Positions 26,808-54,743 of a stretch of DNA of 64,000 nucleotides are shown here, one piece after another (within the stretch, counting starts at the first letter, position 1; every line of letters starts with the position of its first letter). The position numbers and the translations under genes are program-made. The notes under the pieces were generated by a model. It was not told the origin of the DNA, made no database searches, and saw nothing but the letters and a program-made list of their open reading frames with translations. The stretch is from positions 2,386,001-2,450,000 of the forward strand of contig NZ_CP045200.1 of assembly GCF_018636735.1 (NCBI RefSeq). Direction: 5' to 3'. Origin of the DNA: Erythrobacter sp. 3-20A1M. GTDB lineage: Bacteria; Pseudomonadota; Alphaproteobacteria; Sphingomonadales; Sphingomonadaceae.

Positions 26808-27192
26808 GAGCTCCCCTATCGTGGATTGATGTAGCCCAGGCCAATGTGAAATACAATGTAGCACATTGATACGGGGCGCTTCCGATCAAATTTTCCCGCA
26901 ATCGCGCTCGAATCGTGCTCAAATTTTGGCACATCTGGCGCGTATTCCGGCTCTTGGAGGCGCAAATTCGAGCGCGCCCTCTGCAAATCGAGCGGAACGA
27001 AAAAACTTTCAGAAATGAAAGCGGGTCTGCAAAATTGTCCACGTTGGTCTCAAGTAGTCCATAGACGCGTCAAATGGCGCAAATCGGTGATGGTTTCGCC
27101 CGCCAATACCCCACGCTTGCCCTTGAGTTAAGCTCAAAAAGTTCTCATTATGTTCCGTAGAGGGCCTGTCAATGTCAAAGTGAGAACGCCCA
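26808..27192. promoter_or_regulatory. 385-bp intergenic region with two inverted repeats
   Basis: This is a divergent promoter region between the methyltransferase operon and the AlpA gene, with no supported ORF. Two dyads lie near AlpA: TTGAG-TTAAG-CTCAA (27123-27137) and GTTCTCA (27141-27147) matched by TGAGAAC (27181-27187), the latter just before the AlpA ATG at 27193. They are candidate operators for AlpA or the excisionase-like protein. The part next to the methyltransferase (26820-26880) is AT-rich with a TGTAGCACATTG segment, but I cannot define a box there. Confidence 0.5.
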
Positions 27193-27399
27193 ATGTCCAA
27201 TACCGAACGCATTATCCGTCTGAAGACCGTGCTCGACCGCACCGGTCTTTCCCGCTCCACCATCTACCGCAAGATCGCCGAGGGCACATTCCCGTCACAG
27301 GTAAAGATCAGCGTACATGGCGCAGGATGGCATGAATCAGCCATCAACCGCTGGATCGCCGATCCCGCTCACTACCGTGAAGAGGAACCGGCGGAATGA
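27193..27399 (+). CDS. AlpA family DNA-binding regulator
   Basis: A 68-residue AlpA protein: IIRLKTVLDRTGLSRSTIYRKIAEGTFPSQVKI is the MerR-like winged-helix core, followed by GWHESAINRWIADP. AlpA proteins of P4-like elements activate integrase genes or act as excision directionality factors. The gene ends in an ATGA overlap with the following HTH gene. Its place at the right end of the element fits a role in excision control. Confidence 0.88.
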   Translation: MSNTERIIRLKTVLDRTGLSRSTIYRKIAEGTFPSQVKISVHGAGWHESAINRWIADPAHYREEEPAE

Positions 27400-27590
27400 G
27401 CGGCCAACAATCCGTCGAGCCCATCTGCGTCCGGGTCAATGACGCTGCTCGCATGATCGGTGTCGGGCGTACAAAGCTCTATGAATTGATCTCCAGCGGC
27501 GAACTCGAAACGGTCAAGATCGGCAAGGCAACGCGCATTACGACAGCCAGTTTGCATAAGCTGGTTGAGCAGTGTCGGGCGTCGGATTGA
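27396..27590 (+). CDS. Excisionase-family helix-turn-helix protein
   Basis: A 64-residue protein with the excisionase/MerR-like pattern VRVNDAARMIGVGRTKLYELISSGELETVKIGKATRIT followed by a short helix. It is translationally coupled to AlpA (ATGA at 27396-27399). Such proteins bind near attachment sites and bias the integrase toward excision. The two right-end arm-type repeats lie 130-150 bases downstream. Confidence 0.85.
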   Translation: MSGQQSVEPICVRVNDAARMIGVGRTKLYELISSGELETVKIGKATRITTASLHKLVEQCRASD

Positions 27591-27721
27591 CCGGGCCGCT
27601 AACTCGCAATTGGACAGTGTCAGAACGTGCCATTATGTTGCCACTAGTCGCTCCTCGAACCGCCCGTTTATTCAGCTTTTCGACTAAAACGCTGAACCGA
27701 ACCACCGTTAAATGAACGAAA

Positions 27722-27743
27722 GTGTGGGGGAGAGTGTGGGGAA
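27722..27743. repeat. Integrase arm-type repeats, right end
   Basis: GTGTGGGGGA (27722-27731) and GTGTGGGGAA (27734-27743), spaced 12 bp, repeat the motif clustered at the left end of the element (16371-16459). They lie 52-73 bases inside the right attachment copy. Confidence 0.7.
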
Positions 27744-27794
27744 ATGTCTGTCCTTGTTCCAAGAACAGAATTGATATCAAAGCGTTACTTTAAC

Positions 27795-27823
27795 GGTTCG
27801 ATTCAAGCCCTGCCACCACCGGC
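27795..27823 (+). repeat. attR: right copy of tRNA-Tyr attachment repeat
   Basis: GGTTCGATTCAAGCCCTGCC followed by ACCACCGGC matches the left copy at 16233-16264 with two substitutions in the T-arm, and one fewer C plus a T/C difference before ACCACCGGC. It marks the right boundary of the element. No complete tRNA is present here. Confidence 0.8.
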
Positions 27824-28052
27824 TTTCCGCAGCTGTATATCTCTTTCTACTTAAGCCCCCGAAATCGTGGATTAGCGTGATCCGCTGGTGGGTCACGCAA
27901 TGAGCAGCGAGCTTTTTCGCGGTCTTATTGCGCGCCATAATCGGCTTCGCATGCCTGCTGCTATCCACTCGTAGAAGTTGGCGAACCGGCTATGGCGCAC
28001 CTCCCAAGTCGTGCTATTGACATTCATTCGCAGCATCGGCAACAGCGGCAAT
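27824..28052. other. Non-coding gap between attR and the PepSY operon
   Basis: I see no gene here. The stretch contains short frames only. A TTGACA hexamer at 28017-28022 lacks a convincing -10 partner at the right distance. It probably holds the promoter of the operon starting at 28053, but no defined box (for example a Fur box) can be pointed to. Confidence 0.4.
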
Positions 28053-37927: not shown

Positions 37928-38694
37928 GTGGGGTTGAAGCATAGTCACGACGTCTTGGCACTTGACCGGCCGGTGGTCGCGCTCGTCGACGAATATCCAG
38001 CCGGGTTCGTCGATCCGATGCATCGCCACAATCACGTGCAGGTTCTTTACGCATCGGCCGGGGTGATGAGCGTGCGCACGCGCGGTTCCAGCTTCGTCGT
38101 GCCGCCACAACGGGCGGTGTGGATCCCCGCGGATGTGGAACACGAGGTTTCGTGCCGCGGCGATGTTCGCTGCGCACGCTGTATCTTACGTCCAAGGATG
38201 CGCTGACGCGCGAGACCGGCGAATGCCGGGTGTTCGAGGTGTCTGAATTCCTGCGTGCACTGATCCTGGAAACGTCGCGTCTGGATCCCGAGTACGATCA
38301 GGAAGGCCGTGAGGGCCGGATCATCGCCCTGCTGCTGGAGGAGATCGGGCGGATGCCGGAAACCCCCTATCGCGTCTCGATGCCGTCCGACCCCCGACTG
38401 CTGCGCGTGTGCGAGGCGCTGCTCGCCGACCCTTCCGATCCACGCGATCTGGACGATTGGGCCCGGCTTGCCGGCATGGGTCGACGCACCCTGACTCGCA
38501 ATTTCAAGGCCGAGACCGGCATGGGGCTGGCGGTCTGGCGTCAGCAGGTGCGGCTGATGGAAGCGATCGCCCTGATGGCCACCGGCATGTCGATCACGCG
38601 CGCAGCTTATGAAATCGGCTACGACAGTCCCAGCGGATTCACGGCGATGTTCCGCCGAGCCTTCGGCTACGCGCCGAGCCACCGTGACTGGTGA
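37928..38694 (+). pseudogene. AraC family regulator, frameshifted
   Basis: Two frames together make one AraC-type regulator. The first (GTG at 37928 to 38206) gives the cupin sensor: HRHNHVQVLYASAGVMSV, PPQRAVWIPADVEHEVSCRGDV. The second carries LRTLYLTSKDAL and the complete two-HTH DNA-binding domain (LDDWARLAGMGRRTLTRNFKAETG, then MSITRAAYEIGYDSPSGFTAMFRRAFGYAPS). The join is near 38160-38172. Restoring a single base (GATGTTTCGCTG instead of GATGTTCGCTG) would fuse them. It could be a true inactivating mutation or an assembly error. It faces the hydrolase gene, its likely target. Confidence 0.82.
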
Positions 38695-38867: not shown

Positions 38868-40232
38868 CTAGTCCATAACGAGGATATGGTCGGATCGCAG
38901 CCATAGGGGCGGAAGGCAGAGCGGAGTATCCGACAGGGGCAGCACGGAATCTGCTATCGCTGCACCCAATGTGTCGGTCATGAACTTCCGTCGCGCCGAA
39001 ATGCGTTTCCAGACATCGGGATATTGTTGCGCCAGATCGTCCCGCAAACTGCGATCCGCGAATACTACGCTGTCTTCGCAATTGAGAGCCCAGCCGTCGC
39101 GCATAGGCGCGGGAATGATGTCCACCTGCATATGCATGCCTGAGCGGATACGATCGGAGGACCCAGGACGGATGGGTGTGTGCGACCATTCCTCATGCCC
39201 GGTCAGATGCCCGGGGTTGAGAAGCGAACGAAGCCCACCGTCCGATAGAACGCCCGTAACCTCGTCATGAATGAGGCCCCCTTCCACATCGATATCGGCC
39301 GTGGCGTACCAACGTACCAGTCCAGCGAAGTAAGCGGCGGCGACCTCTACGAATGCATCGTCGTGGTCTTCGACCAATCCGCCCCGGGCTGTCAGACCGC
39401 CCCAGAGACCCACCGCGGTGGAAACGCCGTCTCCCTTGTTGATCCGTCGCCAGCCTGGGCTTTTCAGGCCGATCACCGGTCCACCCGCAGCGTTGCCCGA
39501 AGCCAGCATCGGGTGGGCTGTTACGGGCTCGCCGCGATAGTTCATGCGCAAGGCGGCATCACGCTCCGTGTCGCCGGGCCGTATCCTGCCGATGACGTTC
39601 CAGACCATTTGCGAGGTTCGCGCCGCAGCCCCCTCGAACACAGCGATCTGATCAGCGCTGATGATAGATCGCTGCCCGTCCTGCGGATGTAGCAGGACCT
39701 CGGTGCGATCGACTACGCTGTCTGCGCCGACCGTCCGCTGGAGCGCGGCTAGGTAAGGAGCGGGGAGGAATGGGGGGCGAGGTTCTTCGGGCCATTCAGC
39801 AGCTTCGAGGTACTTCCAGCCGATCACTCCCACGCTGTCGCCTCTCTTCAACCCGATTTCGCTCAAGACGTGATCGAGCCGGGGGGCAGTCGTTCGATCC
39901 TGACCGGGTAGGCTCATCGTCTGCGAAAGAAAGACTTCGAGGCCGGGTAGAGGAGAAACCGAGGTGTACGATACGCACTCGTTCCCGGTAACGATGATCC
40001 GCCTTCCTCCGGAACCCAGCAGGAGCAGGGCTTCTTCGAACCTCGGCTCGAAACCCGAAAGGTACATCACATTGGCGAAGTGCTCCCGGTCGGCATAGAC
40101 GTAGAGCCAGTCGGTGCCTGCCGTCTGTAGCGCGGTGTCGCAGCGTTCGGCGTAACGCTCCGCAGAGATGGGCGCAGGCGCACCGATCGGGCCAAAATCC
40201 GGGATGGCGACATGGCGCAGCGAAATGGACAA
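38868..40232 (-). CDS. M24-family peptidase-like protein (creatinase/prolidase fold)
   Basis: A 454-residue protein with the two-domain creatinase/aminopeptidase P architecture: N-terminal domain (ADREHFANVMYLSGFEPRFEEALLLL) and a C-terminal pita-bread domain with NPGHLTGHEEWSH and NCEDSVVFADRSL. The pair of Asp metal ligands normally found as DxG...D near GDxV is not evident (INKGDGVSTAVGLWGGLTARGG), while His and the last Glu remain, so metal binding may be altered. It is divergent from a penicillin-acylase gene, with a shared operator-like palindrome at 40281-40297 between them. Confidence 0.83.
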   Translation of the reverse strand: MSISLRHVAIPDFGPIGAPAPISAERYAERCDTALQTAGTDWLYVYADREHFANVMYLSGFEPRFEEALLLLGSGGRRIIVTGNECVSYTSVSPLPGLEVFLSQTMSLPGQDRTTAPRLDHVLSEIGLKRGDSVGVIGWKYLEAAEWPEEPRPPFLPAPYLAALQRTVGADSVVDRTEVLLHPQDGQRSIISADQIAVFEGAAARTSQMVWNVIGRIRPGDTERDAALRMNYRGEPVTAHPMLASGNAAGGPVIGLKSPGWRRINKGDGVSTAVGLWGGLTARGGLVEDHDDAFVEVAAAYFAGLVRWYATADIDVEGGLIHDEVTGVLSDGGLRSLLNPGHLTGHEEWSHTPIRPGSSDRIRSGMHMQVDIIPAPMRDGWALNCEDSVVFADRSLRDDLAQQYPDVWKRISARRKFMTDTLGAAIADSVLPLSDTPLCLPPLWLRSDHILVMD

Positions 40233-40280
40233 GGTGATCTCCTGTAATTCAAATCCCGCCGACGGGACTTGGCTTGCTCA

Positions 40281-40297
40281 ATTATATATGATTTATA
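40281..40297. promoter_or_regulatory. Candidate GntR operator, copy A
   Basis: ATTATATATGATTTATA lies between the divergent M24-like and penicillin-acylase genes. It is one of three related AT-rich 17-mers in this locus (others at 44338 and 54607), all in divergent promoter regions and all with an invariant ATATGAT core. Confidence 0.62.
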
Positions 40298-40332
40298 GTG
40301 AGAGCAAGAGCTTGGTGCGGAGGGAAGTGACG

Positions 40333-42594
40333 ATGGGGGGAAAGTGGTTTGCAGGTTTAGCGGTGAGCGTCTTTGCGCTCGGCCTTTCTCCTTCGAGTGC
40401 GAAGGACGCACCGCGGTCGGAGCGGGTCACCATCGTGCGCGACGGTTACGGCATTGCGCATATTCATGGTCGTAGCGACGCGGATGCCGTTTTCGGCATG
40501 ATCTATGCTCAGGCGGAAGACGACTTTCCAAGAATAGAGCGCAATTATCTAACCGCGCTTGGACGGCTCGCCGAAGCGGAAGGTGAAAGTGCGGTGTGGT
40601 CCGACGTGCGCCAGCGCCTGTTTCTCGACCTTGATAAACTGAAGGCGGACTACCGGACCTCTCCCGACTGGCTGCGCGATCTGATGGATGCGTGGGCGTC
40701 GGGCCTGAACTACTATCTTGCCACCCATCCCGACACCCATCCCAAAGTTCTGACCCGGTTCGAACCTTGGATGGCGCTCGCCTTTTCCGAGAGCAGTATC
40801 GGCGGCGACATCGAGCGCGGCGTTGATCTTCGCGCCTTGCAGGCATTCTACGACGGGCCCGATCGCCAGGCGCGCCCCGACCTTGTCGCTCTGTTGACCA
40901 GCGAAGCTGGCGAGATGGTGGAGCCCAAGGGGTCGAACGGTATTGCGATCGGGCCGTCACGCAGCAAAAGCGGCAGTCCACTTCTATGGATCAACCCCCA
41001 CACGAGCTTTTTCTTTCGCGCGGAACAGCAAGTGTCGAGCGATGCGGGCCTCGATGCCTATGGCGCAGCCACGTGGGGCCAGTTTTTCATCTATCAGGGC
41101 TTCAACCGGCATATCGGCTGGATGCATACCTCGAGCGGCGTCGACAACATCGACGAATTCGCGGTAGAAGTCAGGCGTAAGGGCGGTCGCCTGCAATATC
41201 GCTACGGGACTGACTGGCGCCCCTTTCGCAGCCGAACCGTATCGCTCAAAGTTCGCCAGTCGGATGGCACCAGCAAGCTTCGTCGCTTCACCCTGCTTTC
41301 GACCCACCACGGGCCGGTCATCCGGGAAGAGAACGGCCGCTGGATCGCGGTGGCCATGCTGAACAACCCGCGCGCGGCGCTCGAGCAAAGCTACCTCCGG
41401 ACCAAAGCGCATTCACTGGACGGATATCTCGAGGCGTCTAGCAGGATGGCGAACAGTTCCAACAACACGATCTTTGCTGCCGACGACGGCACGATCGCCT
41501 ATCTTCATCCTCAGTTCGTTCCTCGCCGTAACGATCGCTTCGACTATACCCGACCAGTCGATGGAAGCGATCCAGCAACCGATTGGCAAGGCCTCCACGA
41601 TCTCGATCAGCTTCCCCAGGTCATCCGGCCAAAAGGCGGTTGGGCCGTCAATACCAACAATCACCCCTGGAGCGCGGCGGGTGACGACAGCCCCGAGCAA
41701 GTGGATTTTCCGCGTTACATGGACCAGTTCGGTGAAAACCCTCGCGGCCGCCACGCTGTCGCCCTGCTGTCGGGTCAGCACATGTTCGACGCAAAAGACC
41801 TGACGAGCGCCGCCTTCGATAGCTTTCTGCCCCTGTTTGACGATCAGATACCCGGGTTGAAAAGGGGTTTGCTTGCGCTGCCGGATGGCGATCCGAGAAA
41901 GGAGAAGCTCACCGCGCCCGTCGCGATGCTGGACGGGTGGGATCGGCGCTGGAGTGTCACGTCCGTGCCCACGGCGCTCGCTGTTTATTGGGGTGAAGCC
42001 TTATGGTCTGCTGAGGGTCCGAAAGCCTACGCTGCAAATGTGCCCCTTTTCACCTATTTCCGAACGCAGACGACCGACGCGGATCGCCTATCCGCGCTCG
42101 ACACTGCGGTCGACAAGATGGTTCGCGAGCAGGGGGACTGGCGTATCGCCTGGGGTCGCATCAATCGGTTCCAGCGCATCGATGGCGCAATCGAACAGGA
42201 CTTCCAGGACAAAGCGCCGAGTTTCCCCGTTGGCTTCACTTCGGGCAATTTCGGCTCGCTGGCTGCGTTCGGTGTGGTCCGGCAATCAGGCGACCGATGC
42301 TTATATGGCACCAGCGGCAACAGTTTTGTCGCTGTGGTCGAGTTCTCACCGGAGGGCCCACACGCCTGGGCGGTATCGGCGGGTGGAGAGAGTGGCGATC
42401 CGCAATCGCCGCATTTCAATGACCAGATTGTTCGCTACGCTACAGGCGCCCTGCGACCGGTCCCCTTCGCTGACGCGGATTTGCAAGCGCTGACAGGTCC
42501 GCGGTATCATCCAGGCGAGGTACACGCCGAGGTCAAGTCGCCGCAGCCGGTCCCCGGTAGCAGTCCTTGCGGGCAACTGAATCCGGCGGGATAA
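40333..42594 (+). CDS. Penicillin acylase family protein
   Basis: A 753-residue Ntn-hydrolase precursor with signal peptide (MGGKWFAGLAVSVFALGLS, cleavage near SSAKDA). The A-chain region (VTIVRDGYGIAHIHGRSDADAVFGMIYAQAEDDFPRIE) precedes the autoprocessing site, where the B chain should begin at Ser in GSNGIAIGPSRSKSG (about residue 200). B-chain features are LLWINPHTSFF and the catalytic Asn in HMTNPR-like AMLNNPRAALEQ. Substrates of the family include beta-lactams, acyl-homoserine lactones and acylated peptides. The Met at 40333 follows AGGGAAG and is preferred to 40168, which would remove the signal peptide. Confidence 0.9.
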   Translation: MGGKWFAGLAVSVFALGLSPSSAKDAPRSERVTIVRDGYGIAHIHGRSDADAVFGMIYAQAEDDFPRIERNYLTALGRLAEAEGESAVWSDVRQRLFLDLDKLKADYRTSPDWLRDLMDAWASGLNYYLATHPDTHPKVLTRFEPWMALAFSESSIGGDIERGVDLRALQAFYDGPDRQARPDLVALLTSEAGEMVEPKGSNGIAIGPSRSKSGSPLLWINPHTSFFFRAEQQVSSDAGLDAYGAATWGQFFIYQGFNRHIGWMHTSSGVDNIDEFAVEVRRKGGRLQYRYGTDWRPFRSRTVSLKVRQSDGTSKLRRFTLLSTHHGPVIREENGRWIAVAMLNNPRAALEQSYLRTKAHSLDGYLEASSRMANSSNNTIFAADDGTIAYLHPQFVPRRNDRFDYTRPVDGSDPATDWQGLHDLDQLPQVIRPKGGWAVNTNNHPWSAAGDDSPEQVDFPRYMDQFGENPRGRHAVALLSGQHMFDAKDLTSAAFDSFLPLFDDQIPGLKRGLLALPDGDPRKEKLTAPVAMLDGWDRRWSVTSVPTALAVYWGEALWSAEGPKAYAANVPLFTYFRTQTTDADRLSALDTAVDKMVREQGDWRIAWGRINRFQRIDGAIEQDFQDKAPSFPVGFTSGNFGSLAAFGVVRQSGDRCLYGTSGNSFVAVVEFSPEGPHAWAVSAGGESGDPQSPHFNDQIVRYATGALRPVPFADADLQALTGPRYHPGEVHAEVKSPQPVPGSSPCGQLNPAG

Positions 42595-42631: not shown

Positions 42632-43405
42632 CTACGGGCGGCCAGGGTGGTTTCCGGCAGTCAGCAAAAGGTCGAGTGCGCCCCGAATGAGCTCGCTCAT
42701 GCGCTCGGAGGCTTGCAAAGCATCACCCTTTATAAGCGCGTCGGCGACGCGCTTGTGATCCTTGGCGCTGGCTCTGGGCACACCTTTATACTCGTTTGTC
42801 CGCCGGATGGAGAACCGCAACGTGGTTTCGGTCAGGCCGGTGAACTGGCGCATGAAACGATTGTTGCTCGCCTCCAGAACTGCAATGTGAAAAGCGATGT
42901 CGGCTTCCAGCGCATCACCCTCGCCGCCGTCGGCTGCGAGCATTCGATCGATCGCATCCATGATCGCGCGGCGCTGAGGACCGGTCGCGGTATGGGCCGC
43001 GAGGCTCGCCGCGCGGGGTTCGATCGACATCCGGATCTCGGTGAAGTCGATGAGCAGATCGATCGAGAATTTGCGTTCGAGCATCCATCGCAGAACATCG
43101 GGATCGAGGAGATTCCAGCTACTCTCGGGCTGGACCACGGTACCTGCGCGCTTGCGTGGCAGCAGGAGACCTTTGGCGGTCAACATTTTCACGGCCTCGC
43201 GAAGCACCGGCCGACTGGCGCCATAGCGTTGCGAGAGTTCCGCTTCGGTCGGAAAGCTGCGGGTCGAACTGTAGTGCTCGGTAACGATTGCGAGCCCCAG
43301 ATCGTCAACGATGCTCTCGGTCAGGTTGCGTCCGTCCTCTGCTCCGCGCGACGTGGCAGAACTGGGAGCCGGTTTGCGGAGTGGTGCAGCGTTTTCGATT
43401 GTCAC
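42632..43405 (-). CDS. GntR family regulator, FadR subfamily
   Basis: A 257-residue regulator from a GTG at 43405 (an ATG at 43546 would add 47 residues without similarity). The N-terminal winged helix is clear (FPTEAELSQRYGASRPVLREAVKMLTAKGLLLPRKRAGTVV) and the C-terminal FCD ligand domain follows (DFTEIRMSIEPRAASLAA, DIAFHIAVLEASNNRFM, DHKRVADALIKGD) with its metal-binding Asp/His pattern. FadR-type members with this layout control sugar-acid pathways, DgoR for galactonate among them. It lies 52 bases after the lactonase gene and is the obvious regulator of the locus. Confidence 0.9.
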   Translation of the reverse strand: MTIENAAPLRKPAPSSATSRGAEDGRNLTESIVDDLGLAIVTEHYSSTRSFPTEAELSQRYGASRPVLREAVKMLTAKGLLLPRKRAGTVVQPESSWNLLDPDVLRWMLERKFSIDLLIDFTEIRMSIEPRAASLAAHTATGPQRRAIMDAIDRMLAADGGEGDALEADIAFHIAVLEASNNRFMRQFTGLTETTLRFSIRRTNEYKGVPRASAKDHKRVADALIKGDALQASERMSELIRGALDLLLTAGNHPGRP

Positions 43406-43457
43406 GATAGGATGTCTATTATCCCCTCGACTGCCATTCGCCAAGCCAGGCAGCAGC

Positions 43458-44318
43458 TTAGCCGGCATAGGCAGGGGTAGGAAGCCCGCGCACTCCTGGC
43501 TCGATTTCGAACAATGCGCCATCGTCGGGTGACCCTGGGGAGCCAAATTCCGCCGACGTCACGAACATCCGATCGAGGTTCGGGCCGGCGAAGGCACAGC
43601 TGGTGATATTGCTGGCGGGGAGCTGCACGCTGCGCATGAGTTTGCCAGCTGGATCGAAACGGCTGACCCGGCCACCTGCCCAGTGCGCGATCCACAGCCC
43701 ACCTTCGCAGTCCACCGTCATCCCGTCGGGGTATCCGTCCTCAGTCGCGAAGCGGATCCATTCCTCGCGCTCGCCTATGCCTTCGTCTTCCAAGCGCTCG
43801 AAGCGGTATACAACGCCGCGACCGCTGTCGTTATGGTAGAGCCAGCGACCGTCAGGGCTGAATGCCGGACCATTGGTGACCTTATATCCATCGTCGACCA
43901 TCGCGACCGACCCGTCTTCCGTCATGCGGTATAGCGCACCGCTCGCCTCCAGATCGCGATCGTCCTTGGAGCCGAACCATAGATTGCCTTCGGCGTCGAC
44001 TTTCGCATCGTTCAGGCGGTTGTGCGGGCGATCCGGTTCGACCGGACAGACCAGCTCGGTCCGGCTTGTTTGTGGATCGAAGCGCGCGATGCTTTTGCGC
44101 AGGCCGACAAGGAGATCGGCATGATCGCGCCGTTCGACCGCCCAGCACACCATGTCGGGCATCGCGTGGCTCCGCACCACGTTCGTGTCCGGCTCGAGCG
44201 CATGTAGATGCGCGCCCAGGATATCGACCCAGTAGAGCAACCCGTCGCGGGCCGACCACATCGGTCCCTCGCCGAGCTGATCAACCCGCGCTCTTGGTAC
44301 TACGCTATAATCGTCCAT
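43458..44318 (-). CDS. SMP-30/gluconolactonase family lactonase
   Basis: A 286-residue six-bladed propeller lactonase. Metal-binding residues visible are Glu in LGEGPMWSARDG (about residue 17), Asn in NRLNDAKVDAEGNLWFGSKDD, and Asp in PDGMTVDCEGGLWIAHW. The family opens sugar lactones to aldonic acids: galactono-, arabinono- or gluconolactone. Beside a galactonate-dehydratase-type enzyme and an SDR dehydrogenase it is the middle step of an oxidative sugar route. It reads divergently from the transporter operon, with a palindrome at 44338 between them, and precedes the GntR gene. Confidence 0.9.
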   Translation of the reverse strand: MDDYSVVPRARVDQLGEGPMWSARDGLLYWVDILGAHLHALEPDTNVVRSHAMPDMVCWAVERRDHADLLVGLRKSIARFDPQTSRTELVCPVEPDRPHNRLNDAKVDAEGNLWFGSKDDRDLEASGALYRMTEDGSVAMVDDGYKVTNGPAFSPDGRWLYHNDSGRGVVYRFERLEDEGIGEREEWIRFATEDGYPDGMTVDCEGGLWIAHWAGGRVSRFDPAGKLMRSVQLPASNITSCAFAGPNLDRMFVTSAEFGSPGSPDDGALFEIEPGVRGLPTPAYAG

Positions 44319-44337
44319 CAACAGGCCTTTCCTTGAA

Positions 44338-44354
44338 TATAAATATGATATATA
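44338..44354. promoter_or_regulatory. Candidate GntR operator, copy B
   Basis: TATAAATATGATATATA, an imperfect 17-bp palindrome (12 of 17 positions symmetric), lies between the lactonase/GntR and AraF-like/transporter operons, 20 bases before the lactonase start. It is related to the copies at 40281 and 54607. Confidence 0.65.
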
Positions 44355-44421
44355 GCACCCGCAACGATTCATCCAGCGCGTTTGATCAGCGAACGCGGCG
44401 GAACAGGGAGGGGCAGAAACG

Positions 44422-45411
44422 ATGGCGCTATCGCGGCGAAGCGTGGTTGGCACTGGCTTGGTGGGCAGTGCCGCTCTGCTTTCGGGCTGTACGCGTGCCC
44501 CCGCGGATATTCGCATCGGGTTCGTTGTCAAAATGCCCCAGGAACAGTGGTTCCAGGACGAATGGCGTTTCGCGAAGGCAGCGGCCCGTGATTTCGGGTT
44601 CACTCTTATAGAAATCGGCGCCGAGGATGGCGACCGGGTCCTGTCGGCCTTGTGGACGCTGTACGCGCGATATGCCCAAGGCTTCATAATCTGTGCGCCC
44701 GACCCCCGGCTCGGTCCGGCGATTGCGGAATATGCCGAACGGACGGGAATGAAAGCTCTCGCCGTGGACGACCGGCTAAGCGCTCCCGACGGCACACCCA
44801 TCGCGCACATGCCCTATGTCGGTATCTCAGCTACCGCGATCGGAAAGCTGGCCGGGGAAGCGGCAGCAACGGAAGCGCGACGGCGCCACTGGGCCCTGGC
44901 GTCTACCGGAGTTCTGCGGCTGGCCTTCGACAGTCTGGAGACTGCGCAAGAACGCACTTCTGGCGCGATCGACGCGCTTGCCAGCGAGGGTTTCTCACAG
45001 GTGTTCGATGCTCCGCAACGCACCAGTGACACGGAGGGAGCTTTTACCGCAGCGGCCCCGGTGATCACTGCAAACCCGGCAATAGACCAGTGGATCATTG
45101 TCGGACTGAACGATGAGAGCGTGATCGGGGGGGTACGCGCGGCCGAGGGGCTGTCGATGACCTCGGGCGATATCATCGGCGTCGGTATCGGCGGATCCGA
45201 GGCTGCTGTGTCGGAACTGGCAAAGCCTACCCCGACCGGCTTCTTCGCAACGGTCCTTCTGAGCGCCCGCCGTCATGGATACGACACCGCCGCGGCGATG
45301 TACCGGTGGATAAAGGATGGTGTTCGTCCACCGGCGGTTACCCTGACCAGCGGCACTCTCATGAACCGGGGCAACTTCAGGCAGATCCTGGCGCGCGAGG
45401 CGATCGCATGA
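44422..45411 (+). CDS. AraF-like sugar-binding lipoprotein of an ABC importer
   Basis: A 329-residue solute-binding protein that follows the L-arabinose-binding protein AraF closely: IRIGFVVKMPQEQWFQDEWRF, FIICAPDPRLGPAI, GMKALAVDDRLSAPDG, TAQERTSGAIDAL, WIIVGLNDESVIGGVRAAEG and GFFATVLLSARRHGY. E. coli AraF also binds D-galactose and D-fucose. Here the leader has RR and a lipobox LLSGC (Cys23), so the protein is probably a membrane-anchored lipoprotein, unlike E. coli AraF. It starts the operon of binding protein, ATPase, permease, dehydratase and dehydrogenase, coupled by ATGA overlaps. Confidence 0.88.
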   Translation: MALSRRSVVGTGLVGSAALLSGCTRAPADIRIGFVVKMPQEQWFQDEWRFAKAAARDFGFTLIEIGAEDGDRVLSALWTLYARYAQGFIICAPDPRLGPAIAEYAERTGMKALAVDDRLSAPDGTPIAHMPYVGISATAIGKLAGEAAATEARRRHWALASTGVLRLAFDSLETAQERTSGAIDALASEGFSQVFDAPQRTSDTEGAFTAAAPVITANPAIDQWIIVGLNDESVIGGVRAAEGLSMTSGDIIGVGIGGSEAAVSELAKPTPTGFFATVLLSARRHGYDTAAAMYRWIKDGVRPPAVTLTSGTLMNRGNFRQILAREAIA

Positions 45412-46940
45412 GCGCGCTTCTGGAATATCGCGGCATCGGCAAGGTATTCCCGGGAGTGGTAGCGCTCGACGGGGTCAGCTTCGCGGTCGAGAGCGGCGAG
45501 GTGCGCGCACTTATCGGGGAGAACGGCGCGGGAAAATCCACCCTCCTGAAAATCCTGTCAGGTCAGTATCAGCCCGATAGCGGAGATTTGCTGGTCGACG
45601 GGCAGCCGCGCCATTTCACGTCGCCGCGCGAGAGCCAGGATGCAGGTATCGCGATCATCCATCAGGAATTGCAGCTTGCGCCGGAACTATCGGTGGCGGA
45701 AAACCTGATGCTCGGCGCGTTCCCGGCGCGGGGTGGGTTCGTCGATCGCCACGAACTGCGGGCCCGCGCGACCGAGGTACTCCTTCGCCTGGGCGAGCAA
45801 ATCGATCCCGATACCAGGCTGGGGGATTTGTCGATCGGCCGACGCCAGATGGTCGAGATCGGGCGTGCGCTTTTGCGCGATGCGCGGATCATAGCCTTCG
45901 ACGAGCCGACCAGTTCGCTCAGCACGCGCGAGGTCGAACGCCTGATGGAGATCATCGGCGATCTGCGTGGGGAGGGGAAGGCAATCCTCTACGTCAGCCA
46001 TCGAATGGAGGAGGTCTACCGACTAGCGGACACTGCGACTGTCCTTCGCGACGGCGCCCATGTTCTGAATGCCGCGCCTGTCGGCCCTGCCGATGCCGAC
46101 CGCCTCGTCGGGGCGATGGCGGGGCGCAAGATTGAAGATATCTATGGCTTCCGCGCGCGTCCTCTGGGCGGTCAATCCATTGCTCTGCGTGGCGTGGAAG
46201 GTCGCGGTTTGCGCCAGCCGGTCGACCTGTCCGCCTCGCGGGGCGAGATCGTCGGTCTTTTCGGCCTGGTCGGTGCCGGACGTTCGGAGCTCTTCCGCCT
46301 GATCTTCGGAGCCGAGCGACGCACGGCAGGTACGGTCGCGATAGAGGGACGCGATCTACCTCCCGAAAATCCGCGCGCCGCTATTGCGGCTGGTCTGGCA
46401 TTTTGCCCGGAAGATCGGAAACGCGAAGGTATCGTTCCGCTAGCGCCTGTCCGGGAGAACCTGGCTTTGGCTTGGCGAAATTTGCGCACCGCAACACCCT
46501 TGCTGCGGCCCTCACGCGAAGCGGCATTGGCGGACGAGCAAATCGACGCGCTGCGAATCAAGACCGCGAGCGCGGAGACGGCGATTGAAACGCTGTCGGG
46601 CGGTAATCAGCAAAAGGCTGTCATAGCGCGCTGGCTGATGGCCGATGCGCGAATCCTGCTTCTCGACGAACCCACGCGCGGCATCGACGTCGGGGCGCGC
46701 AGCGAGATCTACGACCTCATCTACAAGTTCGCGGAAGGAGGTGGGACGGTATTGTTTGCCTCGTCCGACATGCCGGAGGTTTTAGGGGTCGCCGACCGCA
46801 TCGTGGTGATGCGCGAAGGAAGCGTGTCGGGTGTGGTCGCACGTGCCGACGCGACATCAGACCGGTTGCTGCGCCTCGCTCTGCCCGAAGCAAGCCCACC
46901 CATGGCCGACAATGGCGAGAAGGAAACTGTGCCCGCATGA
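45408..46940 (+). CDS. Sugar ABC importer ATP-binding protein (AraG/MglA-like)
   Basis: A 510-residue protein with two fused ABC domains, as in the CUT2 family. The first has Walker A GENGAGKST (about residues 36-44), signature LSIGRRQMVEIGRAL and Walker B RIIAFDEPTSSLS. The second has the usual degenerate Walker A (GLVGAGRSELFRL), signature LSGGNQQKAVIARWL and RILLLDEPTRGIDVG. The start is the ATG within the ATGA overlap with the binding-protein gene (45408-45411). Confidence 0.93.
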   Translation: MSALLEYRGIGKVFPGVVALDGVSFAVESGEVRALIGENGAGKSTLLKILSGQYQPDSGDLLVDGQPRHFTSPRESQDAGIAIIHQELQLAPELSVAENLMLGAFPARGGFVDRHELRARATEVLLRLGEQIDPDTRLGDLSIGRRQMVEIGRALLRDARIIAFDEPTSSLSTREVERLMEIIGDLRGEGKAILYVSHRMEEVYRLADTATVLRDGAHVLNAAPVGPADADRLVGAMAGRKIEDIYGFRARPLGGQSIALRGVEGRGLRQPVDLSASRGEIVGLFGLVGAGRSELFRLIFGAERRTAGTVAIEGRDLPPENPRAAIAAGLAFCPEDRKREGIVPLAPVRENLALAWRNLRTATPLLRPSREAALADEQIDALRIKTASAETAIETLSGGNQQKAVIARWLMADARILLLDEPTRGIDVGARSEIYDLIYKFAEGGGTVLFASSDMPEVLGVADRIVVMREGSVSGVVARADATSDRLLRLALPEASPPMADNGEKETVPA

Positions 46941-47926
46941 CCCGTCTACATCTGATGCGCCAAGCGTGGCCCGTGATCGTCCTGCTGGTCCTGCTTGCAG
47001 TGCTCTCGCTGGCAGTGCCCGACTTCCTCGGCATTCGTAACCTGCGCGGACTTTTGCTTTCCGTGACCCTCGTCGGGACGATCGCTGCTACCATGATGCT
47101 GGTCCTCGCGATGCGCGAGGTCGACCTTTCCGTTGGCTCTATCGTAGCGTTTTCCGGGGTTCTTACCGCCGTCGCGATCAACGCCACAGGCAGCGTGCTG
47201 CTGGGCGTCCTGTCGGGTCTGGCTGGAGGCGCAGCGGTTGGTCTGTTCAATGGCGCGGTGGTCGCCGGCCTGAAAGTCAATTCGCTCATTGTTACTCTAG
47301 CCACGATGGAAGTCGTTCGCGGGCTCGCGTTCCTCGTGTCGGGAGGCGAAAGCGTCGCGATACCGGTGCAGTCCTTCTACGCGCTGGGATCCGGGGGCTT
47401 CCTGGGTATCAATTGGCCGATCTGGGCGATGATCGCGAGCTTCGCAATTTTCGGGCTACTGCTCAGGCGCACCGTATTTGGACGCAACGTATTGGCGATC
47501 GGCGGAAACCCTGAGGCCGCGCGATTGGCCGGGGTGCCGATTACTCGCATTCGTATTACCGTCTTCGCCCTGCAGGGGCTCATTGCCGGACTGGCCGGGA
47601 TTATCCTGGCCGCGCGCATTACCAGCGGGCAGCCCAATACCAGTGCAGGCCTGGAATTGGCTGTGATCTCTGCCTGCGTCCTGGGCGGTGTATCGCTCTC
47701 CGGCGGAGTTGGCACGATGGCCGGAGTGATCATCGGCGTACTCATCATGGGGACAGCGCAGAATGCCCTCAACCTGCTCAATGTCCCGACCTTTTACCAA
47801 TATGTCGTGCGCGGCGGCATCCTACTGCTGGCCGTAATAGCCGATCGTCTGCGTCAGAGCGGGCGTCTCTCCGAACTTCGCCTGTGGCCATTGGCCGCTC
47901 GCACCGCTCTCGATCGGACCCGATGA
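46937..47926 (+). CDS. Sugar ABC importer permease (AraH/RbsC-like)
   Basis: A 329-residue CUT2-family permease with 8-10 membrane segments (WPVIVLLVLLAVLSLAVP, LLSVTLVGTIAATMMLVLAM, LLGVLSGLAGGAAVGLFNGA and others). The conserved EAA-like cytoplasmic loop is seen in GGNPEAARLAGVPITRIRI. It is coupled to the ATPase gene (ATGA at 46937-46940) and to the dehydratase gene (ATGA at 47923-47926). Confidence 0.92.
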   Translation: MTRLHLMRQAWPVIVLLVLLAVLSLAVPDFLGIRNLRGLLLSVTLVGTIAATMMLVLAMREVDLSVGSIVAFSGVLTAVAINATGSVLLGVLSGLAGGAAVGLFNGAVVAGLKVNSLIVTLATMEVVRGLAFLVSGGESVAIPVQSFYALGSGGFLGINWPIWAMIASFAIFGLLLRRTVFGRNVLAIGGNPEAARLAGVPITRIRITVFALQGLIAGLAGIILAARITSGQPNTSAGLELAVISACVLGGVSLSGGVGTMAGVIIGVLIMGTAQNALNLLNVPTFYQYVVRGGILLLAVIADRLRQSGRLSELRLWPLAARTALDRTR

Positions 47927-49071
47927 TGTCTAAAATCGTCTCAATGGAGCATTTTCTTGTTCCGCCACGCTGGCTCTTCGTGCGTATCGAAACAGACGAT
48001 GGAGCCGTCGGGTGGGGTGAGGCCAGTTTGGAAGGGCATGGGGAGGCTGTAGCCGGCGCGCTCGACGCAGCACGTGATCGCTTGATCGGCCACGATGCTG
48101 ATCGGATCGAAGACGCCTGGCAGATGATCTATCGGTTGGGGTTCTATCGCGGCGGGCCTGTTCTGATGTCTGCTCTGTCAGGTATCGATCAGGCGCTATG
48201 GGACCGCAGGGGCCGGGTGCTGAATGCTCCAGTATCCGATCTGTTAGGCGGGCGCGTGCGCGACCGGATCAGGGTTTATGCTTGGATCGGGGGAGACCGA
48301 CCAGGTGACGTTGCCGAAGCTGCGGCTATGCGGCGGGAACAGGGCTTCGACGCAGTAAAGATGAACGGGACGGAGGAAATGGCCTGGCTAGCTGGCCCGT
48401 CAGCGGTCAACGATGCGGTCGAACGGTTGGCTCAGGTTCGCGAGACCGGACTGGACGTCGGGGTCGATCTGCATGGGCGCGTCCATCGTCCGATGGCGCG
48501 GCAAGTGGTTCGCGCGCTAGAGCCGCTCGGACCGCTCTTCATCGAAGAGGTGCTGCTGAGCGAAAATCCCGAGGCGATCGCGCAAGTCGTTGCCCAAACT
48601 GCGGTTCCACTGGCGTTGGGAGAGCGCCTCTTCAGCCGCTGGGATTTCAAGCCGTTCTTCCAGTCAGCTGCGATCGATATTGCCCAACCCGATCTCAGTC
48701 ATGCAGGTGGCATTTCGGAAGGACGCCGAATTGCCGCAATGGCGGAAACCTACGACGTGGCGCTGGCACCTCATTGTCCCCTTGGACCCTTGGCTTTGGC
48801 GTCTTGCCTGCAACTCGCTGCAACGTGTCCCAACTTCGTGATCCAGGAGATGTCGCTGGGAATTCATTACAACCAGGCTGACGCAGACCTTCTTACCTAC
48901 CTCCAAAACCCCGAAGTACTCGACGTGAGCGACGGATCCGTCGCGGTGCTCGAGGGTGCAGGGCTAGGAGTAGAGATCGACGAGGAACGCGTTCGCCACG
49001 CTGCGCGCCAACCTCATCGCTGGCGTAACCCGGTTTGGCGTGGACCTGACGGATCGCTGCGGGAATGGTAA
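47923..49071 (+). CDS. D-galactonate dehydratase-like enolase-superfamily enzyme
   Basis: A 382-residue enzyme, the same length as E. coli DgoD. N-terminal capping domain: LFVRIETDDGAVGWGEASLEGH. Barrel residues: Lys in GFDAVKMNGTEEM, metal ligand Asp and the following His in GVDLHGRVHRPMA, Glu in FIEEVLL and GERLFSRWDF, and the late His in APHCPLGPLALASC. Dehydration of D-galactonate gives 2-keto-3-deoxy-galactonate; a related aldonate such as L-arabinonate or fuconate is possible. It is the fourth gene of the transporter operon; an ATGATG start lies in the ATGA overlap with the permease gene. Confidence 0.9.
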   Translation: MMSKIVSMEHFLVPPRWLFVRIETDDGAVGWGEASLEGHGEAVAGALDAARDRLIGHDADRIEDAWQMIYRLGFYRGGPVLMSALSGIDQALWDRRGRVLNAPVSDLLGGRVRDRIRVYAWIGGDRPGDVAEAAAMRREQGFDAVKMNGTEEMAWLAGPSAVNDAVERLAQVRETGLDVGVDLHGRVHRPMARQVVRALEPLGPLFIEEVLLSENPEAIAQVVAQTAVPLALGERLFSRWDFKPFFQSAAIDIAQPDLSHAGGISEGRRIAAMAETYDVALAPHCPLGPLALASCLQLAATCPNFVIQEMSLGIHYNQADADLLTYLQNPEVLDVSDGSVAVLEGAGLGVEIDEERVRHAARQPHRWRNPVWRGPDGSLREW

Positions 49072-49790
49072 GCGCCGAACTGGAAGGAAAGGTCGCACTG
49101 GTTACGGGCGCGTCCGGCGGGATCGGTCTGGCAACCGCGGCCGTCTTCGCGCGTGCCGGTGCCCATCTCGCGCTCGTCGATAAGGCGCTCGGCTCCGAAA
49201 GGAACGCAGAGCAGGGAACGGTCGAGCGTATCGGCTGTGATCTGAGTGATGGGAAAGCGGTAAGCATGGCGTTCGAGAGAACTCTCGATCGCTTCGGCCG
49301 GGTCGACATCCTGGTGAACATAGCCGGCATCATGATATTCAAGCCGCTGGAGGAACAGTCCGAGCAAGACTGGCACCAGCTTCTGGCGATCAATCTGATC
49401 GCGCCCGCGCTTCTCAGCGGCTTGGTACTTCGGCATGGGGCGCCCGGCAGTTCGATTATCAACATTGCTTCCGTGCATGCCCGGCGCACATCTCCCCTCG
49501 TGGCATCCTACGCCGCGTCGAAGGCTGCGCTGGTCAGCCTCACCAGAAGCACGGCGATCGAAGGGCGTGAACGCGGTATTCGCTGCAATGCCATCCTTCC
49601 CGGGGCGATCGACACACCCCTGCTGCAACAGAGCCCAGCCATCCGTTCCGGTGAGGAGAGCCTCGATCCCGCGGACATTGGCCAGCCCGATGATATTGCG
49701 CAGCTGGCCTTATATTTGGCTTCTCCCCGTGCCTGTTTTATCACCGGCGAGGACATTGTCGCAGATCACGGTCGGATGGGACGGCTCTGA
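49065..49790 (+). CDS. SDR family dehydrogenase (candidate sugar 1-dehydrogenase)
   Basis: A 241-residue short-chain dehydrogenase with TGASGGIG (residues 15-22), NIAG in VDILVNIAGIM, catalytic Ser in IINIASVHA, and YAASK. The end segment FITGEDIVADHGRMG is typical of classical SDRs. It overlaps the dehydratase gene by 7 bases. From context, the likely reaction is NAD(P)-dependent oxidation of galactose or arabinose to the lactone. SDR members of unknown substrate look similar, so specificity is an inference. Confidence 0.88.
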   Translation: MVSAELEGKVALVTGASGGIGLATAAVFARAGAHLALVDKALGSERNAEQGTVERIGCDLSDGKAVSMAFERTLDRFGRVDILVNIAGIMIFKPLEEQSEQDWHQLLAINLIAPALLSGLVLRHGAPGSSIINIASVHARRTSPLVASYAASKAALVSLTRSTAIEGRERGIRCNAILPGAIDTPLLQQSPAIRSGEESLDPADIGQPDDIAQLALYLASPRACFITGEDIVADHGRMGRL

Positions 49791-50554
49791 TCCGGGCTTG
49801 GGATCGCGCTGAAGCCGAGCCGCGTATGGGACCGATAGGTTTCACCGGGCAGCAGCCATGAGGGTGGGAAATGGGCATGGTTGACGCTGTCCGGAAACTG
49901 CTGGGTTTCGAGGCAAAGGCCCTGCCGCCTGCCAAAGTGTCCGGACAGGCCGTTTCCTGAATAGAATTGCAGGGCAGGCTGATCGGTCTCGATTGCGAGC
50001 CGCCGACCAGAGTTCGGGTGGAAGAGCACTGCGGCTGGGCCGACCCTTTCGCGCCGCAGTATGAAAGCATGATTATAGCCGTCGCCCGCTCGTAGCTGGC
50101 TGTCCGGCATGGCGATCGCCTCGCCGATGCGTCGTTCCTCGCGAAAGTCGAAGGGTCCTTGTGCAACGCCACGTATTTCGCCTTGAGGAAGCTGGTCGCC
50201 ATCGATCGGAAGAAACGTATCGGCAGCAATCTTCAGCACGTGGTCGTCGATTGTCTGCGCGCTGGTGCCCGATAGGTTGAAGTAAGGATGCGCAACGAGA
50301 TTGACGGCTGTCGGAGCATCGGTAACGGCGCTGTAATCTATCGACAGCGAACCGGACTTCGCGACTTCGAACTCCGCGCGAGCTCGCAGGGTGCCCGGCC
50401 AACCGCCTTCGCCAGTGGGGCTAATGAGCTCGAGGCGGAGGTACGTCGAGGAAGCGGCTTTGGCCTTCCAGATCCGATGGCTGAAGCCCACCGGCCCCCC
50501 ATGCAGCTGGTGAGGGCCTTCGTTTGCTTCTAACCGCACTAGGGCGTAGACTCA

Positions 50555-50968
50555 TTACGCGTGGCACCAAAGGCGGGCGCAGATGAGTTTGACGGCGGCG
50601 AGGTAGTTTTCGGGGCACTTATCGTAGCGGGTGGCGATGCCTCGGAAGTGCTTGATTCGGTTGAAGAAGCGCTCGACGAGGTTACGCTGCCGGTAGAGCC
50701 AACCCGAGAAGGCAAAGCGCTGCTTGCGGTTGGAGCGCGACGGTATGTTGGCCCAGACATTCTTGCTGGCAGCGGCTTCGCGGATGGCGTTACTGTCGTA
50801 GCCCTTGTCGGCCAGCAGCGTAGCGCCCTCGGGCATGGCATCGAGCAGAGCTTCGGCTTCCTGGCTGTCGTGGACCTGACCACCAGTTAGGCGCAGCGCG
50901 ACGGGACGGCCATCAGCGTCAACGAGGGCATGGATCTTGCTCGTGAGGCCGCCTCGGGAACGTCCCAT
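50555..50968 (-). CDS. IS5-family transposase, C-terminal frame (orfB)
   Basis: 137 residues from the first Met (MGRSRGGLTSKIHALVDADG), containing the second and third catalytic acids: Asp in LLADKGYDSNAIR and Glu in RNLVERFFNRIKHFRG, ending ICARLWCHA. The frame is -1 relative to orfA. The sequence reads through from the orfA slippery run without a stop (NDRGMGRS), so it is most likely made only as an orfA-orfB fusion and is not an independent protein. Confidence 0.85.
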   Translation of the reverse strand: MGRSRGGLTSKIHALVDADGRPVALRLTGGQVHDSQEAEALLDAMPEGATLLADKGYDSNAIREAAASKNVWANIPSRSNRKQRFAFSGWLYRQRNLVERFFNRIKHFRGIATRYDKCPENYLAAVKLICARLWCHA

Positions 50969-51315
50969 GCCGCGATCATTGGATCCCCCTTTTTACCCGT
51001 CGCACCGTGCTGGTGGACGCGGACGCAGGTGGAGTCGATCATCACAATCTCGCCTTCGAAAGCGGCGGAAACCGCAGCAAGCAGCCGGTCCCACACCCCG
51101 GCTTTGCGCCAGCGGACGAACCGGTTGTAGCAGGTCGTAGAGGGGCCGTAGCGCTCAGGCATCTCCGCCCACGGTGAGCCAGTGCGGAACCGCCAGAGGA
51201 TGCCGTTCAGCACCCGCCGATCGTCAACGCGAGGAACGCCGCGCGGCTTGTTCGGCAGCAGCGGCTCGATGATCGACCATTCCTCATCCGTCAGTTCGTA
51301 TCGACGCCGCGCCAT
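50887..51315 (-). CDS. IS5-family transposase, N-terminal frame (orfA)
   Basis: From the Met at 51315 (MARRRYELTDEEWSIIEPLLPNKPRG), with the DUF4096-type N-terminal domain (VLNGILWRFRTGSPWAEMPERYG), and the first catalytic Asp in MIDSTCVRVHQHG. It diverges from the family after GKKG, where minus-strand AAAAAGGGGG (50985-50994) is a good -1 slippery site. Slippage would give the full DDE transposase. Confidence 0.85.
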   Translation of the reverse strand: MARRRYELTDEEWSIIEPLLPNKPRGVPRVDDRRVLNGILWRFRTGSPWAEMPERYGPSTTCYNRFVRWRKAGVWDRLLAAVSAAFEGEIVMIDSTCVRVHQHGATGKKGDPMIAAWDVPEAASRARSMPSLTLMAVPSRCA

Positions 51316-51743
51316 CGAGCCTCCATCGCAATGGAGAGCCTGAATCACGCAAGCCGCCAAACCTCAAGGCGGTTTATGAGTTTACGGCCTAGGACACCGT
51401 CCCTGCGATATTGCGCGTGGCCTACGCGATTGGCGAAACGGCCGCAGGTCGCGCCGAGATAGTGATCGGACCCAGGTGCCCCCGCAGACGGGTAATGTGC
51501 AGGATCGGGATAACCGAGCAAGACATTGGCGATAATGCCGTCGCGATCAGGTGTTTCGATCCCCAAGATGGTCGCGCCGAGATCGGATATGATCACGCGG
51601 AAACTGCCGGCGGCGAGAACGAATTTCCGCGCGATACGGCCATCCGGAAGATGGTGAAGTGTACTGTTGTCCAATGGCCTCGGGGCTTGTTTTGGTGAAG
51701 AACGGGCTGCGATCCCTATTCGGAGACCGCAGCCCTGTCAGTG

Positions 51744-54575: not shown

Positions 54576-54606
54576 TGTTATCCTCCCCCATGTGGTTCGA
54601 CACCAA

Positions 54607-54623
54607 ATTAAATATGATATAAT
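54607..54623. promoter_or_regulatory. Candidate GntR operator, copy C
   Basis: ATTAAATATGATATAAT in the 168-base gap between the TonB receptor and the alpha-galactosidase genes, 32 bases before the receptor start. It shares the AAATATGATATA core with copy B at 44338. A further AT-rich dyad, GGATATATAATCC (54667-54679), lies in the same gap and may be another site. Confidence 0.62.
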
Positions 54624-54743
54624 GAAGGGCTTGTCGAGGGCTTTTCTTCGGTCCACAACCGCTGGTGGATATATAATCCGTATGCCCGTCGCCACCCACA
54701 GACGGACCGCACGCCGCAATTGTATGATTTGAGGGAGGGAAGA

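Follow-up and report, generated by a model that had tools for sequence, protein, structure and literature searches.

The 64,000-nucleotide stretch of Erythrobacter sp. 3-20A1M analyzed here (contig NZ_CP045200.1, forward-strand positions 2,386,001 to 2,450,000; this whole stretch is called the window) contains two divergent genes separated by a gap of 100 bp. One encodes an N-terminal nucleophile (Ntn) hydrolase of the penicillin/cephalosporin acylase family, the other a protein with M24 fold from an uncatalogued family. Together with the genes next to them they form a cluster that combines familiar enzyme folds and a familiar pathway in a new, conserved way. The genes and operator-like sites, in window coordinates, are as follows.

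38868 to 40232, minus strand: M24-fold protein of an uncatalogued family, 454 residues; TTG start with a Shine-Dalgarno-like sequence (by eye)
40280 to 40299, plus strand: operator-like site 1, in the divergent gap between the acylase and M24 genes; 30.2 bits
40333 to 42594, plus strand: Ntn hydrolase of the penicillin/cephalosporin acylase family, 753 residues; PF01804; N terminus signal peptide-like (by eye)
42632 to 43471, minus strand: GntR/FCD regulator (domain match); start codon uncertain
43458 to 44318, minus strand: sugar lactonase of the SMP-30/gluconolactonase family (domain match)
44337 to 44356, plus strand: operator-like site 2, between the lactonase and sugar-binding-protein genes; 29.0 bits
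44422 to 45411, plus strand: periplasmic sugar-binding protein, AraF-like (domain and solved-structure matches)
45405 to 46940, plus strand: ATPase of a sugar ATP-binding cassette (ABC) importer; passes the AraG equivalog model (713 bits versus a cut-off of 689)
46937 to 47926, plus strand: sugar ABC permease; PF02653
47923 to 49071, plus strand: D-galactonate dehydratase (DgoD); NF010624, 563.9 bits versus a cut-off of 311
49065 to 49790, plus strand: short-chain dehydrogenase/reductase (SDR) dehydrogenase (domain match)
49766 to 51662, minus strand: aldose 1-epimerase gene, interrupted at about 50540 to 51395 by an IS4/5-like insert
51744 to 54575, minus strand: TonB-dependent receptor, with 54575 as the likely start
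54606 to 54625, plus strand: operator-like site 3, between the starts of the TonB receptor (54575) and α-galactosidase (54744) genes; 23.9 bits
54744 to 56951, plus strand: GH36 α-galactosidase (4fnq, 2.9e-126); N terminus signal peptide-like (by eye)

Taken together, the GH36 enzyme, the AraF-like binding protein, the ATPase passing the AraG model, and the galactonate dehydratase indicate the use of galactose from α-galactosides. Among solved structures, the binding protein was nearest to L-arabinose-binding proteins (4kzk, 4.2e-98; 6abp, 1.1e-77; 1abe, 1.5e-77), which also bind D-galactose. The SDR dehydrogenase, for which no solved structure matched at 1e-40, is possibly a sugar 1-dehydrogenase. 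With its AraF- and AraG-like importer, mutarotase, lactonase, and galactonate dehydratase, the gene set resembles a route of AraFGH import and oxidation via galactonate (De Ley-Doudoroff type), but it differs from such a route in that the TonB receptor, the α-galactosidase, the acylase, and the M24-fold protein share one operator-like site.

This site was recognized as an AT-rich 13-mer, ATATGATNTATAG, which is present exactly at positions 40286 and 44343 and with two mismatches at 54612. With up to two mismatches allowed, the window contains four matches versus 0.77 expected, and 2 of 100 shuffled sequences reached four. A 20-bp matrix was built from nine sites of five other genomes, none of them from the window; in a test that is non-blind for the window and the five training genomes (the training sites having first been found at up to three mismatches from the window's own 13-mer), it ranked the three gaps of the window highest, at 30.2, 29.0, and 23.9 bits. 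Across 100 simulated windows, the top score had a mean of 11.0 and a maximum of 21.6, and the third-highest was at most 13.6. The site at 54606 lies inside the TonB receptor frame only as that frame was called, and the called frame is over-long. A strict pattern, picked after the sites had been seen, catches sites 1 and 2, misses site 3, and matches three times in the 3.1-Mb genome and not at all in the reversed control; its third match, at 512330 (16.7 bits), lies between genes for a Gfo/Idh oxidoreductase and an IlvD/EDD dehydratase.

The linkage of the genes was followed in related genomes. Copies of the M24 protein turned up in 4 of 397 genomes of the bacterial family (the window's own genome counted) and, by a separate search, in two named species; 296 genomes of the order yielded three close copies, of which that in G496 was new. 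All seven genomes with a close copy (62 to 70% identical, or the window itself) carry the acylase gene next to it as well as the galactose genes, and the acylase, GntR regulator, importer, galactonate dehydratase, SDR dehydrogenase, and epimerase are present in each. A reverse search starting from the binding protein (1e-40) identified 6 of 111 genomes of one genus, all six of which possess the M24 and acylase genes and likewise the GntR, importer, and galactonate dehydratase genes. Three of these six were already among the first seven and three were new, giving ten genomes in total. The M24 protein, acylase, GntR regulator, binding protein, ATPase, permease, galactonate dehydratase, SDR dehydrogenase, and epimerase are present in 10/10; GH36 is present in nine. 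SMP30 is also present in nine, the copy in G1275 being only 38% identical, and was not found at 1e-20 in G1347.

The operator-like sites follow this linkage. In the cluster stretches of the ten genomes (330,531 bp), all 33 sites scoring at least 15 bits, a threshold picked after the scores had been seen, lie upstream of cluster units. The acylase/M24 gap carries a site in every one of the ten genomes, as does the gap before the binding-protein gene, and one or two sites occur in the region of the GH36 and TonB genes in each of the nine genomes with GH36; where the GH36 and TonB genes are non-divergent (four genomes), each has a separate site. Four genomes, G547, G1328, G1347, and G1275, were outside the matrix training and contribute 14 of the 33 sites, and the placement of sites in these four is cleaner evidence than the window test. 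In the scanned stretches outside the ten clusters, two further places exceeded 15 bits, one at 16.9 (G210) and one at 16.7 (a second locus of the own genome). On the basis of linkage and sites, we consider it very probable that the acylase and the M24-fold protein belong to the galactoside regulon. An earlier, sequence-only reading of this DNA had described the two divergent genes, tentatively placed them in a sugar regulon, and proposed one operator-like site common to them and the galactose cluster; the gene positions held, the assignment to a galactose/galactoside gene set is borne out by the linkage and the 33 sites, and the common site was confirmed, with three occurrences in the window instead of one.

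The neighboring GntR/FCD protein, which is 71 to 83% identical in the nine relatives, is the likely, though putative, reader of the sites. A paralogous GntR protein, 53% identical to that of the cluster, adjoins the 16.7-bit site mentioned above. As a separate observation, this second locus (503000 to 522000 of the own genome; L101, 8390 to 13772) is of the sugar-acid type and contains, besides the paralogous GntR gene, genes for Gfo/Idh and IlvD/EDD proteins and a sodium-solute symporter.

The acylase matched PF01804 over nearly its full length (422.2 bits versus a cut-off of 21.3), and its best solved relatives were cephalosporin or glutaryl-7-aminocephalosporanic acid (7-ACA) acylases (1.1e-43). 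It shares with these the whole-length match, the Gly/Ser cleavage site, Ser β-1, His β-23, and the Asn-x-Asn motif, and it differs from them in sitting in a galactoside regulon. Specifically, G200/S201 at the cleavage site, H223 (β-23), N440, and N442 are retained in 31 of 31 aligned rows; we take the Gly-Ser cleavage site, Ser β-1, His β-23, and the Asn residues of the oxyanion region to have their usual catalytic roles. With the PvdQ-type acylases of N-acylhomoserine lactones (AHLs), the protein shares the superfamily and the catalytic pair, its Ser1/His23 pair being presumably of the PvdQ kind, but its score with the PvdQ model NF051460 (121.7 bits) is far under the cut-off of 950. In a tree of 31 acylase sequences, rooted at the midpoint only and consisting of the ten from the clusters and 21 of the others, the ten cluster acylases and that of G210 form one group (support 97/97) apart from the 20 others. 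The G210 gene (L033, 3773 to 17685) is surrounded by genes for a TonB receptor, an FCD-type GntR protein, an IlvD/EDD dehydratase, a DHDPS-family protein, and a GH32/43/130-like protein, a neighborhood that, as judged from these families, is again of the sugar-acid type.

For the M24-fold protein, no Pfam or NCBIfam match was obtained at an E value of 1e-3; with the limit raised to 10, Pfam gave only an unrelated match at 0.12 and none to PF00557, which was matched at E values up to 10 by 9 of 18 family members (best, 3.8e-6). No M24 structure was retrieved from the PDB with the single sequence; two short matches to uroporphyrinogen synthase-like proteins (0.0095 and 0.021) were taken as chance. 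Family profiles did match prolidase 1wy2, at 3.5e-6 with 18 members and 2.3e-12 with 32. A fold model predicted from the 32 sequences had a predicted local distance difference test (pLDDT) value of 91.2 and a predicted template modeling (pTM) score of 0.90, whereas a model from six close sequences was dropped at a pLDDT of 46.1. The model displays the two-domain pita-bread fold, and its top structural matches were PepE (4ege) and prolidase (1wy2_B), both with a Z score of 30.3, over 350 and 331 residues, respectively; aminopeptidase P reached a Z score of about 24. Creatinase (Z, 28.4 to 28.5 over 350 residues) gave the lowest root mean square deviation listed, 2.4 to 2.5 Å, and the ectoine hydrolase DoeA/EutD gave a Z score of 28.3 for DoeA. 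No signal peptide was seen by eye.

Despite the fold, the active site departs from that of prolidase and aminopeptidase P. In profile alignments, the two metal-binding Asp residues correspond to A273 and L280, the His to H342, and the two Glu to D371 and E386; no His aligned, in these profile alignments only, with the active-site His that follows an Ala-Ser-Gly stretch. Among 32 family rows, neither Asp is present in any, while the His, the Asp in place of Glu, and the remaining Glu are present in all 32; an overlapping set of 34 rows, which includes proteins from a haloarchaeon, Enterococcus, and Rahnella, gave the same picture (Asp pair, 0/34; H342, D371, and E386, 34/34). Residues invariant in both sets include D48, E50, H51, N54, R64, E66, E67, E85, K140, and R188, and R283, E348, S358, and Q369 are invariant as well. 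The family, whose members come from bacteria and a haloarchaeon, carries an N-terminal signature of Asp-Arg/Lys-Glu-His...Asn and Pro-Arg-Phe-Glu-Glu. The weak match of one homologue (L072) to the NCBIfam PepQ model reached 26.2 bits versus a cut-off of 630. Since both Asp residues are lost, the usual dimetal site cannot form. The sequence-only reading had suspected that part of the Asp pair was missing; the loss at the metal site stands, and its extent was underestimated, both Asp being absent and one Glu replaced by Asp, with the His and the other Glu kept. Creatinase needs no metal. Most likely, the M24-fold protein works with no dimetal center, like creatinase or the ectoine hydrolase, proteins that have the fold in common with it but are only 12 to 17% identical.

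The surroundings of the M24 family were also read in other genomes. Five homologues are 54 to 56% identical to the window protein; in a tree, four of them form the sister lineage of the window's clade (support, 1.0), with the homologue of Rhizobium T136 just outside. All four have an ABC importer (sugar type in three) and M20, M81, or arginine deiminase-like genes nearby: in Agrobacterium, Pantoea, and Microvirga, the company includes ROK regulators besides the sugar ABC importers, along with M20 genes (Agrobacterium and Microvirga), an M81 gene (Pantoea), and a creatininase gene 8 kb away (Microvirga), and in Shinella it includes a LacI regulator and an arginine deiminase-like gene besides the ABC importer. 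The T136 homologue has a LacI regulator, Gfo/Idh oxidoreductases, and, by eye, an amino acid-type binding protein near it. Another homologue, in G581, lies with SMP30, IlvD/EDD, MR_MLE, TRAP, and GntR genes, and one in Halomontanus lies amid sulfatases, GH97, and SMP30. A homologue also occurs in 11 of the 296 genomes of the order, these 11 belonging to one genus; in six stretches read there, the gene lies beside a FAD oxidoreductase (five stretches) or a GMC oxidoreductase (one), accompanied by PfkB, BtpA, and an amino acid permease in four and by an arginine deiminase-like gene in two. The set of FAD oxidoreductase, PfkB, BtpA, and amino acid permease recurs around the distant homologues of L062, L063, L065, and L066. 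Homologues were further present in 14 of 69 genomes of a family taken for Enterobacteriaceae, where in one stretch (L106) a GH1-like gene adjoins the homologue by eye, and in 64 of 72,556 plasmid records, all below 60% identity. Sugar surroundings of the M24 family are therefore frequent and not universal.

We propose that the two divergent genes are a constant component of the galactoside regulon, the acylase removing an acyl group and the M24-fold protein opening a C-N bond, and assign this reading a probability of about 0.42. It builds on the computed linkage, the repeated sites, the intact catalytic residues of the acylase, the pita-bread model, and the loss of both Asp residues; the identity of the regulator, the protein locations, the substrate, and the M24 reaction we infer. 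The GntR/FCD regulator would exert control via the AT-rich operator repeated before each transcription unit. The TonB receptor would admit a galactoside with an amide-linked (N-acyl) group, from which the periplasmic Ntn acylase would strip off the acyl part and the α-galactosidase would free galactose. The AraFGH-like importer would then bring in the sugar, to be oxidized by mutarotase, dehydrogenase, SMP30 lactonase, and galactonate dehydratase, and the cytoplasmic, non-dimetal M24-fold protein would open the C-N bond of the remaining amine-bearing part. The gene set is read most simply as deacylation in the periplasm, followed by liberation of galactose through GH36 and by import and oxidation of the sugar. 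For its two enzymes taken singly, action of the acylase on an amide-bearing galactoside comes near to an even chance, and C-N hydrolysis by the M24-fold protein is put forward tentatively, at somewhat less than even odds. Passages of one report (PMC3187862) have the M24-fold hydrolase DoeA and the deacetylase DoeB working in one pathway, which provides a precedent for an M24-fold C-N hydrolase paired with a deacetylase. The suggestion of the sequence-only reading that the enzymes might free sugar or amino groups from compounds with amide links fits the gene set and is neither supported nor excluded by the analysis.

Several observations weigh against the proposed scheme. On the side of transport and catabolism, the importer looks, from its sequence, like a monosaccharide type, which would leave no evident cytoplasmic entry for the amide product, and no kinase or aldolase was seen in the cluster, although no search was aimed at them. 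On the side of control, either GntR protein may read the sites, the paralogue and its like site leaving the reader unsettled, and in S. koreensis the TonB gene has no site of at least 15 bits and no GH36 gene lies in the stretch covered. The distribution is patchy, as the M24 gene is absent from the other genomes of the window's genus that were sampled (0/9). The two genes also occur apart. An acylase match at 1e-100 was obtained in 63 of the 397 family genomes, and 59 of these 397 have such a match and no M24 match. G210 has a cluster-type acylase and no M24 match, and its sole site above 15 bits (16.9) precedes a BCCT transporter gene and not the acylase gene; G303, likewise with no M24 match, has an acylase fragment (67%) at the edge of a contig (C2, 4 to 1338). 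Conversely, the acylase match was absent by tblastn from ten other stretches with M24 homologues and from six more. Such homologues without acylase occur in part among sugar-acid genes (G581) and in part without a clear sugar cluster: no common sugar cluster was seen by eye, without a family search, in six stretches of the family taken for Enterobacteriaceae (L103 to L108), and two enterococcal plasmids (L081 and L082) have no annotated sugar-use cluster, with a family 8 glycosyltransferase adjoining in one. Finally, no C-N hydrolase was found among the genes searched around the T136 homologue.

The strongest alternative is that the M24-fold protein is a sugar enzyme breaking no C-N bond, with, e.g., a lactone, keto-sugar, or sugar acid as its substrate, and takes a direct part in the oxidative sugar route, the acylase having a separate role in the regulon. 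We regard this with some doubt, although such a role in sugar-derivative metabolism is nearly as likely as C-N cleavage. It would account for the acylase-free homologue of G581 next to SMP30, IlvD/EDD, an MR_MLE dehydratase, and a TRAP importer, for that of G461 beside a GMC oxidoreductase and a xylose isomerase-like TIM barrel, for the company of sulfatases, GH97, and SMP30 in Halomontanus, and for a Rahnella homologue two genes from a sorbosone dehydrogenase-family gene; moreover, DddP, by the titles of its structures, combines the pita-bread fold with lyase chemistry. The M20, M81, or arginine deiminase-like genes near four of the five closest homologues point instead to C-N chemistry, as do creatinase and ectoine hydrolase, which are close in fold and cleave C-N bonds.

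That the acylase/M24 pair is merely carried along, having the promoter switch in common and scavenging amides or peptides released with galactosides, appears unlikely. Such a role would agree with the 59 genomes that have an acylase without an M24 match and with the 11 other acylase stretches (besides that of G210), in which no neighbor was common to more than two and no hint of the substrate emerged; these rest on crude gene calls, an antisense frame having displaced the acylase in three. The pair and its site-bearing gap are nevertheless kept in all ten clusters, and among the 31 rows of the tree the cluster acylases form one group to which only G210 is added. Equally improbable is a peptidase still working with a single metal on H342, D371, and E386: these residues align with the His and two Glu ligands and are kept in all rows of both sets, but neither Asp is present in any of them. 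Least probable is that the acylase degrades AHLs in quorum quenching and shares the sugar switch by chance, or degrades signals as the sequence-only reading had suggested, a view favored by PvdQ structures among its relatives (5ubl, 8.6e-26) and by part of a review (PMC5474475) in which AHL degradation is judged a likelier natural role of penicillin acylase-named enzymes than one on β-lactams, and opposed by the nearer cephalosporin acylases, by the score far below the PvdQ cut-off, by a cluster in which no signaling gene was recognized, and by the common site that binds the acylase to galactoside genes in 10/10 clusters.

A wider form of the proposed scheme, in which the conserved His/Asp/Glu site of the M24-like family (holding one metal or none), together with the N-terminal signature, breaks a bond in sugar-derived amides and is here wired with an acylase for an N-acylated galactoside, is speculative and rather unlikely; the galactoside may be, e.g., a galactosyl lipid or a lincosamide-like amide. 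In the open-access literature, no paper on this gene combination was found, and among the 8 of 87 matches listed for lincomycin amide cleavage, none mentions lincomycin. What penicillin and cephalosporin acylases act on in nature has long been asked; in passages of the above review (PMC5474475), a β-lactam-potentiating role is called hard to imagine and AHL degradation more conceivable. In the present clusters, a common site and conserved linkage connect one such acylase with a single kind of sugar diet, which makes it feasible to test a limited set of galactosides, and a pathway for N-acylated galactosides, if true, would provide a natural role for an enzyme of the penicillin acylase type. 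A presumed galactose-use switch that also appears to extend over an acylase and an M24-like enzyme hints that this small set of sphingomonads dismantles sugars bearing amide-linked groups. The cluster member from the uncatalogued family is probably misnamed: annotated plasmid members are mostly called M24 family metallopeptidase, Xaa-Pro aminopeptidase, or aminopeptidase P, and with the Asp pair in none of the proteins examined, this peptidase naming could mislead genome readers.

Some further features of the window were noted. The insert in the aldose epimerase gene is approximately 0.86 kb long, contains two overlapping IS4/5-type transposase frames, and is present as a single copy in the genome; an Rfam search of positions 49700 to 51800 gave nothing at gathering thresholds, and in one relative (L008, 10426 to 11463) the epimerase gene is whole. 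The listed frame of an AraC-type gene at 38119 to 38694 barely exceeds the DNA-binding domain, and truncation or another start is possible. The G+C content falls to 0.52 in the segment from 24001 to 28000 and ranges from 0.59 to 0.66 in the remaining 4-kb blocks.

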